Shown: positions 41,619 to 48,843 of the stretch, piece after piece
Layout of the letters: each line of letters begins with the position of its first letter
How positions within the stretch are numbered: position 1 is the first letter of the stretch
Assembly (NCBI GenBank): GCA_026417625.1
Contig: JAOACW010000004.1
Coordinates: 1-64,000, forward strand
Length of the DNA: 64,000 nt
Source: Syntrophales bacterium
GTDB lineage: Bacteria > Desulfobacterota > Syntrophia > Syntrophales > UBA8958
Direction of reading: 5' to 3'
The notes under the pieces: model-generated
The model's input: the letters and a program-made list of their open reading frames with translations, nothing else
Told to the model about the DNA's origin: nothing
The model's database searches: none
Translations under genes and position numbers: made by a program

Positions 41619-42797
41619 ATGATAAACCTCAGGCCCTGCCCCAAGGCATACCTCCGTGAGACACACCGCGCTAAAACACCCGAAGAAACACTAGCTTTCG
41701 TGGATACAATCAAAGACACCCTGGCAATGATAGACATGAAAAACATTACTGATCTCGATAGAATCGGTATCCCTGTATTCTCATGCTTTCGTATACGACG
41801 GGATAACTCCACTACATTTCATACTGGAAAAGGTACGACCAATGTTCAGGCTCAGGTGTCCCTCACTATGGAAGCAGTAGAACGTTTCTCATCTGAATAT
41901 GATCCTTCGAAAGAAGGACGTTTAATTAAGGGAAGCTGGAAAGAGCTTAAAAAAAAGTTCAATATACTTCACCCCACGGAACTGATTCTTTCCCAGTTTG
42001 CCGATTATGATGAAAATCACGAAATCAGCTGGGTAGAAGGTTTTGATCTCATAAATTCAGAAAACATCCTGGTTCCCGCATGTGCAGTATTTCATCCATT
42101 CGAGAACAGCGAAACTTTTCTTCTTTCCACTCACACGAACGGCATTGCTTCAGGAAACACTATGGAAGAAGCAATACTCCATGGAGTTTTCGAAGTTATT
42201 GAAAGGGATGCCATAAGTATCGTTAAGTTTTCCCGTAATAAAAGAGAACAAGTAATCATAGGGGATGAACAAGAAAATGAGTTTCTGCAAAATCTACACA
42301 AACACTTTCACAAAGCCCAATTGGAACTAACACTTTACAACTATACATCTGATCTCGGAATTCCAGTTTTAGCGGCAAGAATAGAGGACCAAATTTATAG
42401 CGATTTAATGCCCACTGAAGGATACGGGGCTCATCTGGACCCCAAAGTGGCTGCTGCAAGGGCCATACTCGAAGCTGCATCAAGTAGAGCACTACTTATT
42501 CAACGCTATGGATTGGAAAACCTTCGTGAAACCCCTATTCCATATTTGGAACCTGAGATGTATCTAGAAAACGAGGAATTTATCACCCTTAGCGAAATGA
42601 ACAGTGGCTATTCGTTAGACATAAAAGAGGATATTGAAACAGTGCTCGATGGTATTAAATCAGCGGGTTTTACAAAGGCAATTGTGGTTGATCTCACATC
42701 TCCTGAAATAGGGATACCCGTTGTCCGGGTAATAATCCCAGGAATGGAGGTCTTCAGTTTCGACAGATCTCGCCGAGGACAAAGACTTTATAGGTAG
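41619..42797 (+). CDS. YcaO-domain protein, resembling the thioamide-forming/methanogenesis marker 1 type
   Basis: 392 residues, essentially all YcaO domain. YcaO enzymes phosphorylate peptide backbone amides with ATP, making azolines, thioamides or amidines. Seen: CPKAYLRETHRAKTPEETL opening as in methanogenesis marker protein 1, the ATP/Mg motifs S81-x3-E85-x2-E88-R89 and E192-V-I-E195-R196-D197, and E285-AASSR290, with Ser where most members have Gln. The C-terminus lacks the PxPxP tail of azoline synthetases. No tfuA, precursor peptide or mcr gene is near. Three bases separate it from the next gene. The substrate is unknown. Confidence 0.85.
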   Translation: MINLRPCPKAYLRETHRAKTPEETLAFVDTIKDTLAMIDMKNITDLDRIGIPVFSCFRIRRDNSTTFHTGKGTTNVQAQVSLTMEAVERFSSEYDPSKEGRLIKGSWKELKKKFNILHPTELILSQFADYDENHEISWVEGFDLINSENILVPACAVFHPFENSETFLLSTHTNGIASGNTMEEAILHGVFEVIERDAISIVKFSRNKREQVIIGDEQENEFLQNLHKHFHKAQLELTLYNYTSDLGIPVLAARIEDQIYSDLMPTEGYGAHLDPKVAAARAILEAASSRALLIQRYGLENLRETPIPYLEPEMYLENEEFITLSEMNSGYSLDIKEDIETVLDGIKSAGFTKAIVVDLTSPEIGIPVVRVIIPGMEVFSFDRSRRGQRLYR

Positions 42798-42800
42798 GCC

Positions 42801-43148
42801 ATGCTAAGTGAAAAAGAAGTGAGAGATCGAGCTGAGTATTGTTACCTTGTATTTTATCAACTGTCCTGTTTGAGGGCTGCAGATGTACCACCCCATAAAT
42901 ACCTGGAATATTTAGAAAATTCTTCTCTAAAACTCGGAGAGGACGAATTCATCCGTTCCATAATAGAAGAAGACCTTTTTCTGGGCATACCAGACGGAGG
43001 TCTTCAGTATTTGATTACACTCTACGAAGGATTCACTCATGCCCTCTGCGAAGTTTTGGAAACTAACGTAGAATCCCTTCGTGACAGCATACCCAAATCG
43101 TTACTGGAAAAACTCGCAACTGAGATCCGATCAAAAGAACCTTACTGA
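42801..43148 (+). CDS. Unrecognised 115-residue protein, partner of the YcaO gene
   Basis: The ATG lies three bases after the YcaO stop, so the pair is co-translated. The protein is acidic, predicted mostly helical (RAEYCYLVFYQLSCLRAAD, GLQYLITLYEGFTHALCEVL), has three Cys (residues ~14, 20, 91) without a metal motif, and no signal or membrane segment. No known family was recognised; it is not TfuA-like. It could be a substrate-binding or delivery subunit for YcaO. Confidence 0.75.
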   Translation: MLSEKEVRDRAEYCYLVFYQLSCLRAADVPPHKYLEYLENSSLKLGEDEFIRSIIEEDLFLGIPDGGLQYLITLYEGFTHALCEVLETNVESLRDSIPKSLLEKLATEIRSKEPY

Positions 43149-43299: not shown

Positions 43300-44358
43300 A
43301 TGCCGAGAATTCGCGGGAAAACAAAAAAAGCCGAGATAATGACCCTTGAAGAAGCAGTAAAGACATTCATGCACGATGGTGCAATGATAGCTTTCAGCGG
43401 ATTTACAGGCTTTAACCGGAACCCCTTTGCTTTTGCATGGGAAACGGTTAGACAGGGTTTTAAAGACCTACACGTCATCGACCGCCATGGTAGCACTTGT
43501 ACGTGGCTCCTTAATGCAGTCGGAGCTATAAAGATCTATGAGACCGACTGGATGGGCTGGGGCGAAATGGCAGGCAAGCTTGATATAAACTTAGAACGAA
43601 ACTACAAAGCTGGTAAGATGATACTTGAAGATTACTCCCACGGCGCAATGGCGATGCGCTTCCTGGCAGGTGCTATTGGCGCTCCGTTCATTCCATATTA
43701 CGCACCTCTTGGATCGGATCTCTACAATCCTAAATACGACGCCTTAGGAAGAGCGGGACTAAGAGACGGCAAGAATCCATTTATTCCTAAGAAAAAATTT
43801 ATCCAAATGGAAGAACCCTTCTGGTGGGGTGGTGGTGATGTGGTTCTACTGCCGGCAGCCACACCTGAACTTGCAATAATACATGTGTCACAGGCAGGTG
43901 ATAAAGGAACCGCCCGATGGAGAGGTGTAGGTACCATAGATAAAGAAATAGCCTTCGCCTGTGAAAAGGTAGTAATCATTGCTGAAGAAATTGTTCCAGA
44001 AGGAGAAATGAGAAAATATCCGGAAAACAATCAGATACCTTATTTTGTCGTGGATGCCATTGTGGAATGTCCGTGGGGTGCCTTCCCGAGTGCCGTCCCT
44101 TACTACTACGATTATGATGCTCCTTTCATGAGAGAAATGGATAAGGCCTCCAGAAATCCAGAGGACTTGAAGAAATGGCTCGATGAATGGGTCTACGGTC
44201 CCAAGAATTGGGAGGAATTCCTAACCAAATTAGGCACAAAACGGCTTCTGGATCTAAGGGCAGATAGCGTTACTGGCTACAGTACACGCATGATGAGAGG
44301 TAAGAAACCAGCACCCAGAATGAAGATGCCCTTGTCTGTGGCAAGAAGTGGCTACTAA
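43300..44358 (+). CDS. gctA: CoA-transferase alpha subunit, glutaconate CoA-transferase-like
   Basis: Family I CoA-transferase alpha subunit, 352 residues. Seen: GAMIAFSGFTGFNRNPFAFA (CoA-binding Gly-rich loop), MGWGEMAGKLD, GAIGAPFIPYYAPLGSDLY, and VVLLPAATPELAIIHVSQA. The size and the GSDL block are closer to GctA of Acidaminococcus than to the smaller acetoacetate CoA-transferases. It needs the beta subunit encoded 20 bases downstream. In context, glutarate or glutaconate activation is likely, but substrate specificity cannot be read from sequence. Confidence 0.85.
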   Translation: MPRIRGKTKKAEIMTLEEAVKTFMHDGAMIAFSGFTGFNRNPFAFAWETVRQGFKDLHVIDRHGSTCTWLLNAVGAIKIYETDWMGWGEMAGKLDINLERNYKAGKMILEDYSHGAMAMRFLAGAIGAPFIPYYAPLGSDLYNPKYDALGRAGLRDGKNPFIPKKKFIQMEEPFWWGGGDVVLLPAATPELAIIHVSQAGDKGTARWRGVGTIDKEIAFACEKVVIIAEEIVPEGEMRKYPENNQIPYFVVDAIVECPWGAFPSAVPYYYDYDAPFMREMDKASRNPEDLKKWLDEWVYGPKNWEEFLTKLGTKRLLDLRADSVTGYSTRMMRGKKPAPRMKMPLSVARSGY

Positions 44359-44378: not shown

Positions 44379-45281
44379 ATGGCTAAAACGATGGAAGAAT
44401 TGATGGCTTTGATCGATGTAATACCAAATGAACCTGCTAAAGATGGGGAATTCATACTACCTGAGTTGATGGCAATTGCTGTAGCTCATGAAGTGCGGAA
44501 CGATGACATAGTGTTTGCGGGAACCGGGCTACCCATGGTGGGTATAATGACAGCCCAATTTATAAATGCTCCCAAGGCTATGTTGATCTATGAGTCAGGA
44601 ATATGTGACGGTAAAACCATGCATGTTCCGATGTCTGTTTGCGATCAGAGAGCAGCAAACTTGTGCTCCACTCTGGGTGGTCTGGTGGATACATTCGGCT
44701 ACTACCTCCAGCAGGGTTACGTTACTCTTGGGTTCCTTGGGGGAGCAGCTATTGATAAGTACGGTGGGGTGAACGTTACATCTATAGGCGATTATTACTC
44801 TCCATCACACAGATTTACGGGTTCAGGCGGTAACGGCGACATAGGCACTATGGCAAAACGAACAGCATTCATTATCCTACAAGAGAAGAGGCGTTTCGTA
44901 GAAAGGAACGACTACACAACAACGCCTGGATGGTGGTGCTGGGACTGGAAAGACGGAAAATGGAAACCAAAGAAGGAAGTTTGGAAAGGTACTCCTTTCG
45001 CAGATTGCGGGCCCGTTGCTGTTGTGACCAATATGGGCGTCTATCGTTTCGATGAAGATGGTATCATCTATCTCGAAACATGTCATCCTGGTGTAACAGT
45101 TGAACAGATCAAGGACAACTGCGGATTCGATCTAAACGTGTCACGTGTGAAAGGCGAAACACCGAGACCCACATATAGGGAGCTCTTCGTTCTCCGTGAA
45201 TTCGTGGATCCCGAGTTGATTTTCCTGCCTGCAAAGACGCCATACCCACCTGATATTCAGGCGATTATAGATAAAGCTTAA
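44379..45281 (+). CDS. gctB: CoA-transferase beta subunit, glutaconate CoA-transferase-like
   Basis: Carries the catalytic glutamate that forms the enzyme-CoA thioester, in the block MLIYESGICDG near residue 71. Other family blocks: IVFAGTGLPMVGIMTAQ, GYVTLGFLGGAAIDKYGGVN, GSGGNGDIGTMAKR. 300 residues; a Trp-rich insertion (GWWCWDWKDGKWKPK) lies near residue 185. It ends shortly before a strong terminator, so gctAB form a two-gene operon. Confidence 0.86.
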   Translation: MAKTMEELMALIDVIPNEPAKDGEFILPELMAIAVAHEVRNDDIVFAGTGLPMVGIMTAQFINAPKAMLIYESGICDGKTMHVPMSVCDQRAANLCSTLGGLVDTFGYYLQQGYVTLGFLGGAAIDKYGGVNVTSIGDYYSPSHRFTGSGGNGDIGTMAKRTAFIILQEKRRFVERNDYTTTPGWWCWDWKDGKWKPKKEVWKGTPFADCGPVAVVTNMGVYRFDEDGIIYLETCHPGVTVEQIKDNCGFDLNVSRVKGETPRPTYRELFVLREFVDPELIFLPAKTPYPPDIQAIIDKA

Positions 45282-45411: not shown

Positions 45412-46569
45412 ATGAATTTCGACTTAACAGAAGATCAACGCATGATTCAGGAAACAGCTCGTAACTTTGCGAAAACGGAGCTGGAGCCAGTTGCTGCAAA
45501 GATGGACGAAGAAGGTGACCGGGATACATTTTTAAAAAACCTCAGAAAGCTAGCAGAACTGGGAATGATGGGCATCAACGTAAAGGCTGAATACGGTGGA
45601 TCTGAAGCAGGAGTCATTGCTTTCAGCCTTGCAATTACGGAAATTGCCCGGGCCTGTGCATCCACAGCAGTTACCATGTCCGTGACGAACATGGTTTGTG
45701 AAGTCATCCAGGCTGTAGGAACGGAGGAGCAGAAACGTAAATACATTCCAAAAATGTGTTCCGGTGAGTATTACGCTGGAGGCTTCGGACTTACAGAACC
45801 TACAGCAGGCTCCGACGCAGCGGGAGTCCGTTGTACAGCCGTACTCGACGGAAATGAATGGGTATTAAACGGGAATAAAATCTTCATTACCAGTGGCGAA
45901 TACGCAGGTGTATTCGTGGTCTGGGCTGTAACGGACAAATCTGCTCCAAAAGGCAAAGGCATTTCCACATTCCTCGTTGAAAACGGCACGAAAGGATTCA
46001 CAATAGGTAGGGCGGAACACAAAATGGGACAGCATGCCTCTGCCACAAACGAACTGATCTTCGAGGATTGCCGAATTCCTAAAGATGCCTTATTGGGGGA
46101 GTTAAACGGTGGATTACGAATCGCACTAGGTGAACTTTCCGGGGGTAGAATAGGCATAGGTTCCCTTGCGCTCGGTGTGGGTCAGGCCGCTATTGAATAC
46201 GCCACACGTTACGCCGTGGAAAGAAGGCAGTTCGATCAGCCAATCAGCAATTTCCAAGCCATCCAGTGGATGATAGCTGAATCCCATACAGAGCTCGAGG
46301 CGGCAAGATTGCTCCTCCTTTACGCTGCTTTCCTTAAAGAAAAGGGGAGACCATTTGCCAGACAGGCTTCTATGGCAAAATACTACGCTACTGAGGCAGC
46401 AGAAAGGGCATGCTACAACGCCATCCAGATCTGCGGCGGATATGGGTACACAAAGGAATTTCCTGTGGAAAGGTATTACAGAGATGTGAGGGTTACGTCC
46501 ATCTACGAAGGTACCAACCAGATTCAAAGACTCATTATTGCCCGTGATATTCTGAGTAGTATAAAATAA
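45412..46569 (+). CDS. Acyl-CoA dehydrogenase, possibly glutaryl-CoA dehydrogenase
   Basis: 385 residues with full dehydrogenase motifs: GGFGLTEPTAGSDAAGV, LNGNKIFITSGEYAG, GELSGGRIGIGSLALGVG, GGYGYTKEFPVERYYRDVRV and SIYEGTNQIQRL with the catalytic Glu. It follows the glutaconate-CoA-transferase-like genes, which favours glutaryl-CoA as substrate, either with decarboxylation to crotonyl-CoA or stopping at glutaconyl-CoA as in Desulfococcus. No decarboxylase gene is in the window. A general short-chain acyl-CoA dehydrogenase is the alternative. Confidence 0.85.
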   Translation: MNFDLTEDQRMIQETARNFAKTELEPVAAKMDEEGDRDTFLKNLRKLAELGMMGINVKAEYGGSEAGVIAFSLAITEIARACASTAVTMSVTNMVCEVIQAVGTEEQKRKYIPKMCSGEYYAGGFGLTEPTAGSDAAGVRCTAVLDGNEWVLNGNKIFITSGEYAGVFVVWAVTDKSAPKGKGISTFLVENGTKGFTIGRAEHKMGQHASATNELIFEDCRIPKDALLGELNGGLRIALGELSGGRIGIGSLALGVGQAAIEYATRYAVERRQFDQPISNFQAIQWMIAESHTELEAARLLLLYAAFLKEKGRPFARQASMAKYYATEAAERACYNAIQICGGYGYTKEFPVERYYRDVRVTSIYEGTNQIQRLIIARDILSSIK

Positions 46570-46636: not shown

Positions 46637-47371
46637 ATGTTCACAAAAAACGTGATAGCTGAAATTTCAGAGGGACTAGGAATTATCAAACTTAACAGAC
46701 CGGCGAAAAAGAATGCCATAAACATTGAAATGCGCAGAGAAATAACAGAGGTCCTCAGAAAATGGAAAGAAGACTCCAATGTGGGAGCTGTTATCATAAC
46801 TGGAAATGGTGACGTTTTCTCTGCAGGGTTCGATCTCGGAGAGTTCAAAGAAACGCAATTAATCACAGAAATCTTCAAAACCTCCTCTACGTATCATAGA
46901 GAAGTGTGGTACTTTCCCAAACCCACAATGGCGGCAGTAAACGGTCCAGCCCTAGCAGGGGGATTTGACCTTGCCAAACTTTGCGACCTCCGCATATGCT
47001 CTGATAGAGCAACATTCGGTCATCCCGAAATTAGGTTTACACCCACCCTCTACACTCCTCTCAAATGGTTGATCGGTGCAGGTCTAGCTCGAGATCTTTG
47101 CCTCAGTGGAAGAATAATTGATGCCCAAGAAGCTTTCCGCATTGGGCTGGTAAGTGAAATAACACTACCGGGACGTCTACTTGGACGGGCCAAAGAAATA
47201 ATGAAAAAAATCATAGATCAAACACCACAACACGTACTGAACATTCAAAAGCGTTTTTTCCAGACACACGATGTCTTAGGGTTTGAAGAATCCTTCGCCA
47301 TAGAACACGATGCCGCATTTCAAGAATTCCTACTCAGAACCATAGCCGACAGGACAGCGACAAAAAATTAA
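46637..47371 (+). CDS. Enoyl-CoA hydratase/isomerase family protein
   Basis: 244-residue crotonase-fold protein: IIKLNRPAKKNAINIEMRRE, GNGDVFSAGFDLGEF (first oxyanion loop), AAVNGPALAGGFDLAKLCDL (second loop) and FGHPEIRFTPTLYTPLKWLI. In the second loop Asp replaces the first catalytic Glu of classical hydratases, so isomerase or another crotonase reaction is possible. Its 3' end overlaps the convergent radical SAM gene by four bases. Confidence 0.86.
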   Translation: MFTKNVIAEISEGLGIIKLNRPAKKNAINIEMRREITEVLRKWKEDSNVGAVIITGNGDVFSAGFDLGEFKETQLITEIFKTSSTYHREVWYFPKPTMAAVNGPALAGGFDLAKLCDLRICSDRATFGHPEIRFTPTLYTPLKWLIGAGLARDLCLSGRIIDAQEAFRIGLVSEITLPGRLLGRAKEIMKKIIDQTPQHVLNIQKRFFQTHDVLGFEESFAIEHDAAFQEFLLRTIADRTATKN

Positions 47372-48843
47372 AAAATCTCCGCCAATGCCGTTTCAATCAT
47401 ATTCACAGCCTCCTCCATGGCAGCGTTCCCCCGGTAAAACTTATTATCTCGCCAGTCCCTATAGTCTGGCGGGATCTTACCCTCGAGAAGATAATCCAAC
47501 ATGGAAAACTCGTAGAATGTTTTGCGGAGGGTGAAATAAGGATCTGCACCATGAGTCACCCGCACCATTGCCCTCGCTAAATCGAAAATTTTATACATCC
47601 GATCGATGTCCAATTCTCGATAGGAGGAAAAGTAATAGACCCATTCCTTTTCATGCCATTTTCCATCTCTGATAAGGGTTTCCTGAATGGGAGTACCAGG
47701 GAAGGGAATAAGAGACTCAGTATACGCAATTTCAGCACCCATTTTGAAAATAGCACAACCCAGACGAATCGTCTCTCTTATTGTATCAACAGTATCCCAG
47801 GGTCCAAAAAGAATAAAACTCACAACGGGCGTTAGATTCTGTTCCACACAGTAACTTACACCTTTTATGATATTCTCCACTTGAAGATCCTTCCCATAAA
47901 GGGAAAGTATCTCTTCTGAACCAGACTCTGCACCGATGTAAAGGCCTTTGAAACCTGCTTCGCTCATCCAGGATGCCATTAAAGGTTGCCTGCAGACATC
48001 GTCAATCCTACCCTGGGCATAAAACTCTACGTCTTGATTAAGAAAATTTCTAGTAATGGCCCGGCATATTTCCCTAACCCTTTCAGGGAAAGATGTAAAA
48101 TTGTCATCTGTAAAAAGGATACGTCGCGCACCCATACCTCTTAGCATTCCTATTTCTTCCAAAACTTTCTCCAGCGGTTCAAAGCGCACTTTAGATCCAT
48201 AAAGTCTTCTGATGGAGCAGAAAGTACACCGGTTAGGACAACCTCTGCTGGAGGAAATCGAACGAACCTTATAATATCTGCTATCAGAGAGGTGAAAAGC
48301 AGGGAAAGGATAACTACCGAGATCTCTTACAAGGGGCCGGTTGGGATTGTGTATTACCTCTTTACCCCTTCTGTAACTTAAACCAGGCACATCTTCGGGT
48401 GGATGACCACAGTAGATATCCTGTACAAGTTCCTGAAACGTCTCCTCTCCTTCCCCCCGACAAACCACATCCACAACTTCATAATCTCTAAGGATCTCAT
48501 CGTAGAGGACCGTGGCATGGATTCCGCCCAAAACAGTCAAAACGTCACTATTTCTATTTTTAGCTCTCTCGCATATCTTTAAGGCCTCTCCGACCGTGTT
48601 GGACATGCATGTGACCCCGAGTATCAACGGCCTCTTCGTCTCGAGATAACAATCCAAAATTTCATACCGCTCCTCTTTTTCCCCAACATCCATATCGAGG
48701 ATGTGCACATCAAATCCGTCCTCCAAAACTGGTGTGGCAAGTGACTCCAACGCAAGGGGAGATACTTCCGACAACCCATTGAACCGGGGATTTACAAGAA
48801 GGATAAAAGGAACCTTACCTTTCCAGGAAAAAAAATCGCTCAT
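47368..48843 (-). CDS. B12-binding radical SAM protein
   Basis: 491 residues. The N-terminal half (about 10-150) is a cobalamin-binding Rossmann-like domain (FILLVNPRFNGLSEVSPLAL, VLTVLGGIHATVLYDEIL), the middle a radical SAM barrel with SRGCPNRCTFCSIRRLYG for the 4Fe-4S cluster, and the C-terminal ~90 residues are unassigned. Class B radical SAM enzymes of this layout methylate unactivated carbons or rearrange rings. The substrate is unknown; the gene is preceded by the Cys-rich gene at 48862-49176 with an 18-base gap. Confidence 0.88.
   Translation of the reverse strand: MSDFFSWKGKVPFILLVNPRFNGLSEVSPLALESLATPVLEDGFDVHILDMDVGEKEERYEILDCYLETKRPLILGVTCMSNTVGEALKICERAKNRNSDVLTVLGGIHATVLYDEILRDYEVVDVVCRGEGEETFQELVQDIYCGHPPEDVPGLSYRRGKEVIHNPNRPLVRDLGSYPFPAFHLSDSRYYKVRSISSSRGCPNRCTFCSIRRLYGSKVRFEPLEKVLEEIGMLRGMGARRILFTDDNFTSFPERVREICRAITRNFLNQDVEFYAQGRIDDVCRQPLMASWMSEAGFKGLYIGAESGSEEILSLYGKDLQVENIIKGVSYCVEQNLTPVVSFILFGPWDTVDTIRETIRLGCAIFKMGAEIAYTESLIPFPGTPIQETLIRDGKWHEKEWVYYFSSYRELDIDRMYKIFDLARAMVRVTHGADPYFTLRKTFYEFSMLDYLLEGKIPPDYRDWRDNKFYRGNAAMEEAVNMIETALAEIF

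Follow-up and report, generated by a model that had tools for sequence, protein, structure and literature searches.

A YcaO enzyme paired with a conserved small helical protein beside a CoA-transferase operon in Syntrophales: a candidate protein-backbone thioamidase

A YcaO enzyme and a 115-residue protein, here called SM, form a conserved gene pair in a Syntrophales bacterium, a relative of Syntrophus. The YcaO belongs to a separate clade that co-occurs with one subfamily of the CoA-transferase subunit GctA, while TfuA, MCR and a flanking precursor peptide are absent. With somewhat less than even confidence, we read this YcaO as a bacterial protein-backbone thioamidase with SM as a non-TfuA partner, most likely serving the CoA-transferase GctAB. 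In the window, that is, the whole 64,000-nucleotide stretch of DNA that was analysed, the pair lies between a divergent thiolase-HBD-ECH-ACAD operon and gctA-gctB-ACAD-ECH, in keeping with the preliminary description of this DNA, which put it between a thiolase operon and gctAB. The following features are considered:

41619 to 42797, plus strand: YcaO-family ATP-dependent backbone-amide-activating enzyme, 392 aa (Pfam, NCBIfam, phmmer against PDB, fold and tree)
42801 to 43148, plus strand: SM, conserved 115-aa all-helical protein, candidate YcaO partner or adaptor (conservation, AF2 model and adjacency)
43300 to 44358, plus strand: GctA, class I CoA-transferase alpha subunit of a strongly conserved subfamily (PDB 1poi_A, 1.4e-50)
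44379 to 45281, plus strand: GctB, CoA-transferase beta subunit, proposed substrate (PDB 1poi_B, 3.6e-47)
45412 to 46569, plus strand: ACAD2, acyl-CoA dehydrogenase after gctB in the same operon (synteny)
47368 to 48843, minus strand: B12-binding radical SAM protein (co-occurrence and family search)

The window YcaO is the sole YcaO of its genome (1.79 Mb, 97.8% complete) and belongs to the superfamily defined by Pfam PF02624 (264 bits, cut-off 25.7). Its top NCBIfam match is TIGR03266, the family of YcaO enzymes that thioamidate the McrA glycine, at 341.3 bits. This agrees with its earlier placement closest to the methanogenesis marker 1 group, although the score lies below the equivalog cut-off of 365 bits. 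All 31 clade YcaOs checked, which are bacterial, also score below 365 bits, the window copy scoring highest. The McrA-glycine enzyme (MJ1094 of M. jannaschii, PDB 6pe3/6peu) is the best match at the level of family, sequence and fold alike: MJ1094 heads the phmmer search of PDB (9e-63), the predicted model of the window YcaO aligns with 6peu, the M. jannaschii YcaO with bound peptide, at a target-normalised TM of 0.85, and its fold matches include 6peu and 6ci7. Both are proteins of about 390 aa with a single YcaO domain and conserved ATP residues; the catalytic and ATP residues E85, E88, R89, E192, E195, R196 and E285 are invariant in the 31 clade YcaOs. The replacement of Gln by Ser in the third ATP motif, pointed out previously, was found at Ser288, which aligns with the Gln of MJ1094 (TEVAQSRA). 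It is, however, a trait of the clade rather than an oddity of the window copy, since this position is Thr in 29 of the 31. The clade thus differs from the McrA-glycine enzymes in its Q to T/S change, in its pairing with SM and in its linkage to a CoA-transferase. A PxPxP C-terminus is one criterion for azoline-forming (TOMM) YcaO enzymes. The window protein ends in RRGQRLYR, with no PxPxP, and scores 182 bits against the SagD-type model TIGR03604 (cut-off 219), which places it outside that group. Taken together, its chemistry is quite probably backbone thioamidation.

TfuA (PF07812) was absent from the bacterium's own genome. It was detected in two of the 155 class genomes, neither of them with a YcaO of the window clade. 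MCR alpha (PF02249) was absent from the bacterium's own genome and from all 155 class genomes, with methanogen controls positive. The ORF lists of both flanks of the pair contained no plausible precursor peptide, and its conserved neighbourhood no recognised RiPP partner. The locus is therefore, as first described, without mcr, TfuA or a short precursor peptide, but the absence of TfuA is unremarkable, because thioglycine is also formed in M. jannaschii and M. kandleri, both of which lack TfuA (PMC5589413). Compared with the YcaO-TfuA pairs known from thioamitide RiPP pathways and from methanogens, the window locus is alike in having a small partner gene adjacent to ycaO and, in one sub-clade of the window YcaO group, a sulfur-transfer neighbourhood. 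It differs in that SM matches no TfuA model and no precursor peptide was found at the window locus.

The SM reading frame starts three bases after the YcaO stop codon, in the frame of YcaO. It had been described as belonging to no recognised family, and indeed gave no match to Pfam, NCBIfam or PDB sequences; 25 members of the SM family likewise gave no convincing match to Pfam. The AF2 model is all-helical and confident (pLDDT 94.3), and a fold search with it returned no relative in PDB (best E 1.4) or a viral library (best E 2.4). SM is nevertheless a real, conserved family, being present in 29 of the 155 class genomes, 27 of which also carry YcaO (the other two are G018 and G028). It also directly follows YcaO in two genomes of the phylum sample that lie outside the class and carry the YcaO clade (G511 and G421), and in a Desulfarculales-named MAG (L100). 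A single-sequence scan of genome contigs found nothing, and a scan with an SM profile retrieved 19 loci, almost every one of which belongs to the class or to one Desulfarculales-named MAG. A loop with the sequence SSLxL is conserved at residues ~41-45, and no Gly or Cys is invariant across the family. A single-chain model of the fused YcaO-SM read-through reached a pTM of 0.78 and gave no indication of a fixed interface, although its two-residue link makes it a weak interface test. Among 17 paired genomes, SM distances correlated with YcaO distances at r 0.75 (Mantel p 0.0005) and with GctA distances at 0.40; these correlations are minor support, as they are moderate only and the rank correlations weak. 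We hold it slightly more probable than even that SM is a partner of YcaO, in which case it offers a new, non-TfuA kind of YcaO partner protein.

The YcaO clade is monophyletic (98/99) and separate from MJ1094, the M. kandleri YcaO and a TfuA-linked YcaO of the class (G105). SM lies directly downstream in 23 of the 41 members, inside and outside the class, and the remaining 18 form a single nested clade (100/99) without adjacent SM. This suggests that the ancestor of the clade already had the pair and that it was separated a single time; the question raised earlier, whether the small protein always follows this YcaO clade, is answered with yes for the 23 and with no for the nested group. The G105 YcaO (L091), of another clade, stands beside TfuA and branches with MJ1094, a possible thioamitide-type cluster. 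Two genomes carry both an SM/gctAB-type and a sulfur-gene-type YcaO (G152, L058/L063; G148, L060/L090).

In the nested clade, gene names were read from the sequences with no family search. Members of family f1 have NifS-MnmA-NadA-MOSC-CysE-YcaO-FdhD operons, NifS being a cysteine desulfurase; NifS, IscU-like, MnmA, NadA, MOSC, CysE and FdhD genes occur in the operons of L070, L071, L089, L090, L148 and L151, and YcaO stands beside MnmA in G116 and G117. This operon context suggests a sulfur relay that may feed the nested-clade YcaO, and archaeal ycaO-tfuA genes have a similar neighbourhood of sulfur and molybdopterin genes (PMC5589413). In family f14 (L062, L065, L087, L149), the neighbours of YcaO include methylmalonyl-CoA mutase as well as a MeaB-like GTPase, and YcaO lies about 15 kb from gctAB in four f14 genomes; SM was not found in these genomes, which retain YcaO and GctAB. 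An MBL-fold-like protein directly follows YcaO in L065, L087 and L149 (319 aa in L087).

We assessed the co-occurrence of YcaO and GctA in two samples, the 155 genomes of the class holding Syntrophales and a 395-genome phylum sample, in the latter of which the GctA subfamily was defined at E values up to 1e-90. Of the 395 phylum-sample genomes, six carry the YcaO clade and exactly these six carry the GctA subfamily; four of the six belong to the class, and in G421 the two lie on different contigs. Within the class, the GctA subfamily was found in 31 of the 37 YcaO genomes, with G147 counted from its GctB. Conversely, seven class genomes have the GctA subfamily but no YcaO, including the near-complete G028 and G085; several of the exceptions come from incomplete MAGs or from the ends of contigs. 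The association in the class gave a Fisher value of 5e-20 ignoring kinship, and held at family level in 9/9 families (9/0/2/10, p 2e-4). Such near confinement of the YcaO clade to GctA-subfamily genomes means that the enzyme may modify the CoA-transferase rather than make a natural product. The preliminary description had suggested a metabolic enzyme as the target, naming a CoA-transferase or a thiolase. The former is favoured by co-occurrence, linkage and the McrA-like motif described below. The latter was rejected as a YcaO partner, the neighbouring thiolase being far too broadly distributed (95 of 154 genomes; Jaccard index with YcaO 0.31, against 0.70 for GctA). The literature consulted contained nothing relevant that links YcaO to Syntrophales, to Desulfobacterota or to a CoA-transferase. 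As to variation around the pair, a second, distant CoA-transferase pair (GctB ~36% identical) lies convergently, directly after or near SM, in L059, L069 and L073, and an IS200-like transposase ORF (7280-7708 of L140, G511) separates SM from a convergent gctAB.

The nearest solved structure to the window GctAB, and of the same fold family, is the glutaconate CoA-transferase of A. fermentans (PDB 1poi), and the window GctB retains the glutamate of its ESG motif (Glu72). It differs in the sequence FGYYLQ, which is absent from 1poi_B and from the majority of the other GctB paralogues compared. In McrA, the residue that carries the thioamide is Gly465 within LGFFG465FDLQDQCG (PMC5589413), and F-G-Y-Y-L-Q of GctB resembles this F-G-F-D-L-Q thioglycine site, making Gly107 (codon 44697-44699) the candidate residue. 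The stretch DTFG[YF][YF]LQ is present without exception in the aligned full-length GctB proteins of the YcaO-linked subfamily. Within the 386,420 residues of the 1,171 gene models surrounding the loci, the pattern [FY]G[FY]xLQ, which was chosen post hoc after the match had been seen, is confined to GctB. The majority of distant GctB proteins lack this pattern, and Ala replaces Gly107 in a GctB paralogue of a YcaO-positive genome (G154p). FGYYLQ also occurs in a haloarchaeal GctB encoded on a plasmid of Haladaptatus halobius (L261), and GctB proteins of YcaO-negative genomes retain FG[YF][YF]LQ. A comparison of GctA, GctB and ACAD2 residues between YcaO-positive and YcaO-negative genomes gave no convincing separating difference. 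Since short McrA peptides are modified by a methanogen YcaO, that enzyme reads a local stretch (PMC13063428). We regard GctAB as a plausible but tentative substrate, clearly below even probability, and Gly107 as the site of modification is doubtful. The predicted tryptic peptide of GctB that contains Gly107 is AANLCSTLGGLVDTFGYYLQQGYVTLGFLGGAAIDK, with a monoisotopic mass of 3695.85, to which a thioamide would add 15.977 Da.

A further companion is the B12-binding radical SAM protein, found in 25 class genomes, of which 24 also have YcaO. It is close to no named family (best ApyD, 127 bits; 95 bits against the family of MCR glutamine C-methyltransferases), and elsewhere its gene often adjoins one for an acyl-CoA synthetase-like protein of ~550 aa. 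Because thioamidation and radical-SAM C-methylation meet on one protein in MCR (PMC7581889), a joint role of this enzyme and YcaO is possible. The combined picture, in which GctB would be thioamidated at Gly107 (F-G-Y-x-L-Q), SM would replace TfuA and the B12-radical SAM enzyme might add a second modification, echoing MCR, seems to us rather unlikely as a whole.

Two other roles for SM have to be weighed. SM might belong to the CoA-transferase operon, in GctAB assembly or regulation, with no YcaO role and an adjacency that reflects operon order. This is unlikely, in our estimation: SM does adjoin gctAB, directly upstream, where YcaO is encoded elsewhere (L077, L078, L080, L081) or is missing (L142), but YcaO accompanies SM in 27 of 29 genomes, SM divergence follows YcaO better than GctA, and SM stays by YcaO where gctAB is distant (G421, G091). 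Being tied to both YcaO and gctAB, SM behaves as an adaptor would. Alternatively, SM might itself be the YcaO substrate, a small protein with a thioamide as its working group, as its ancestral adjacency, small size and SSLxL loop could suggest. That is very unlikely given a confidently folded helical model with poor access for backbone modification, the lack of an invariant Gly or Cys, the f14 genomes that keep YcaO and in which SM was not found, and SM without YcaO in G018 and G028.

A stronger competitor, to which we give appreciable weight though well short of even, is that YcaO thioamidates a protein encoded elsewhere, such as ribosomal uL16 or another enzyme belonging to this metabolism, and that the clade-wide linkage to gctAB may be joint inheritance of one cluster. 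The E. coli YcaO modifies uL16 with no linked precursor or TfuA (PMC13063428), features shared by the window locus, where the target would likewise be a folded housekeeping protein. Seven genomes have GctA but no YcaO, and the nested-clade YcaO has left gctAB for sulfur operons or the methylmalonyl-CoA mutase neighbourhood. Against this stands the phylum-wide co-presence of YcaO and GctA, even on separate contigs. As for uL16 in particular, the window YcaO falls in a subfamily distant from the E. coli enzyme (18 bits against NF040716, cut-off 700), is shorter, has no TPR extension and sits in another gene context; the E. coli protein is also very acidic, with a pI of 4.4 (PMC13063428) against 5.13 for the window YcaO. 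A last reading is a RiPP pathway, making an azoline or thioamide natural product from an unlinked precursor; it is opposed by the conservation of YcaO alongside metabolic genes. RiPPs are the substrates of most studied YcaO enzymes, and the class does contain a TfuA-linked YcaO of another clade (G105), but the absence of an adjacent precursor ORF, of TfuA in the genome, of any known RiPP partner among the conserved neighbours and of a PxPxP C-terminus leaves this reading with hardly any probability.

If YcaO is a protein-backbone thioamidase serving GctAB, it would use ATP to phosphorylate a backbone amide oxygen, and sulfide would then replace the activated carbonyl oxygen, as in the McrA enzyme, where ATP phosphorylates the amide oxygen and sulfide takes its place (PMC7581889). 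The target would be a housekeeping enzyme and not a natural-product peptide, most likely GctAB next door, with Gly107 of GctB as the leading candidate site. SM would most likely present GctAB to YcaO, bringing the two together, a role useful rather than essential, because one lineage is without SM. Sulfide or a persulfide relay could come from the anaerobic setting and from the sulfur operons seen in the nested clade. To our knowledge, MCR and uL16 are the only proteins known with YcaO-made thioamides. The 2026 study of uL16 suggested that further YcaO protein substrates await discovery (PMC13063428), and this Syntrophales locus puts forward a concrete third candidate, with an enzyme, a residue and a peptide mass.
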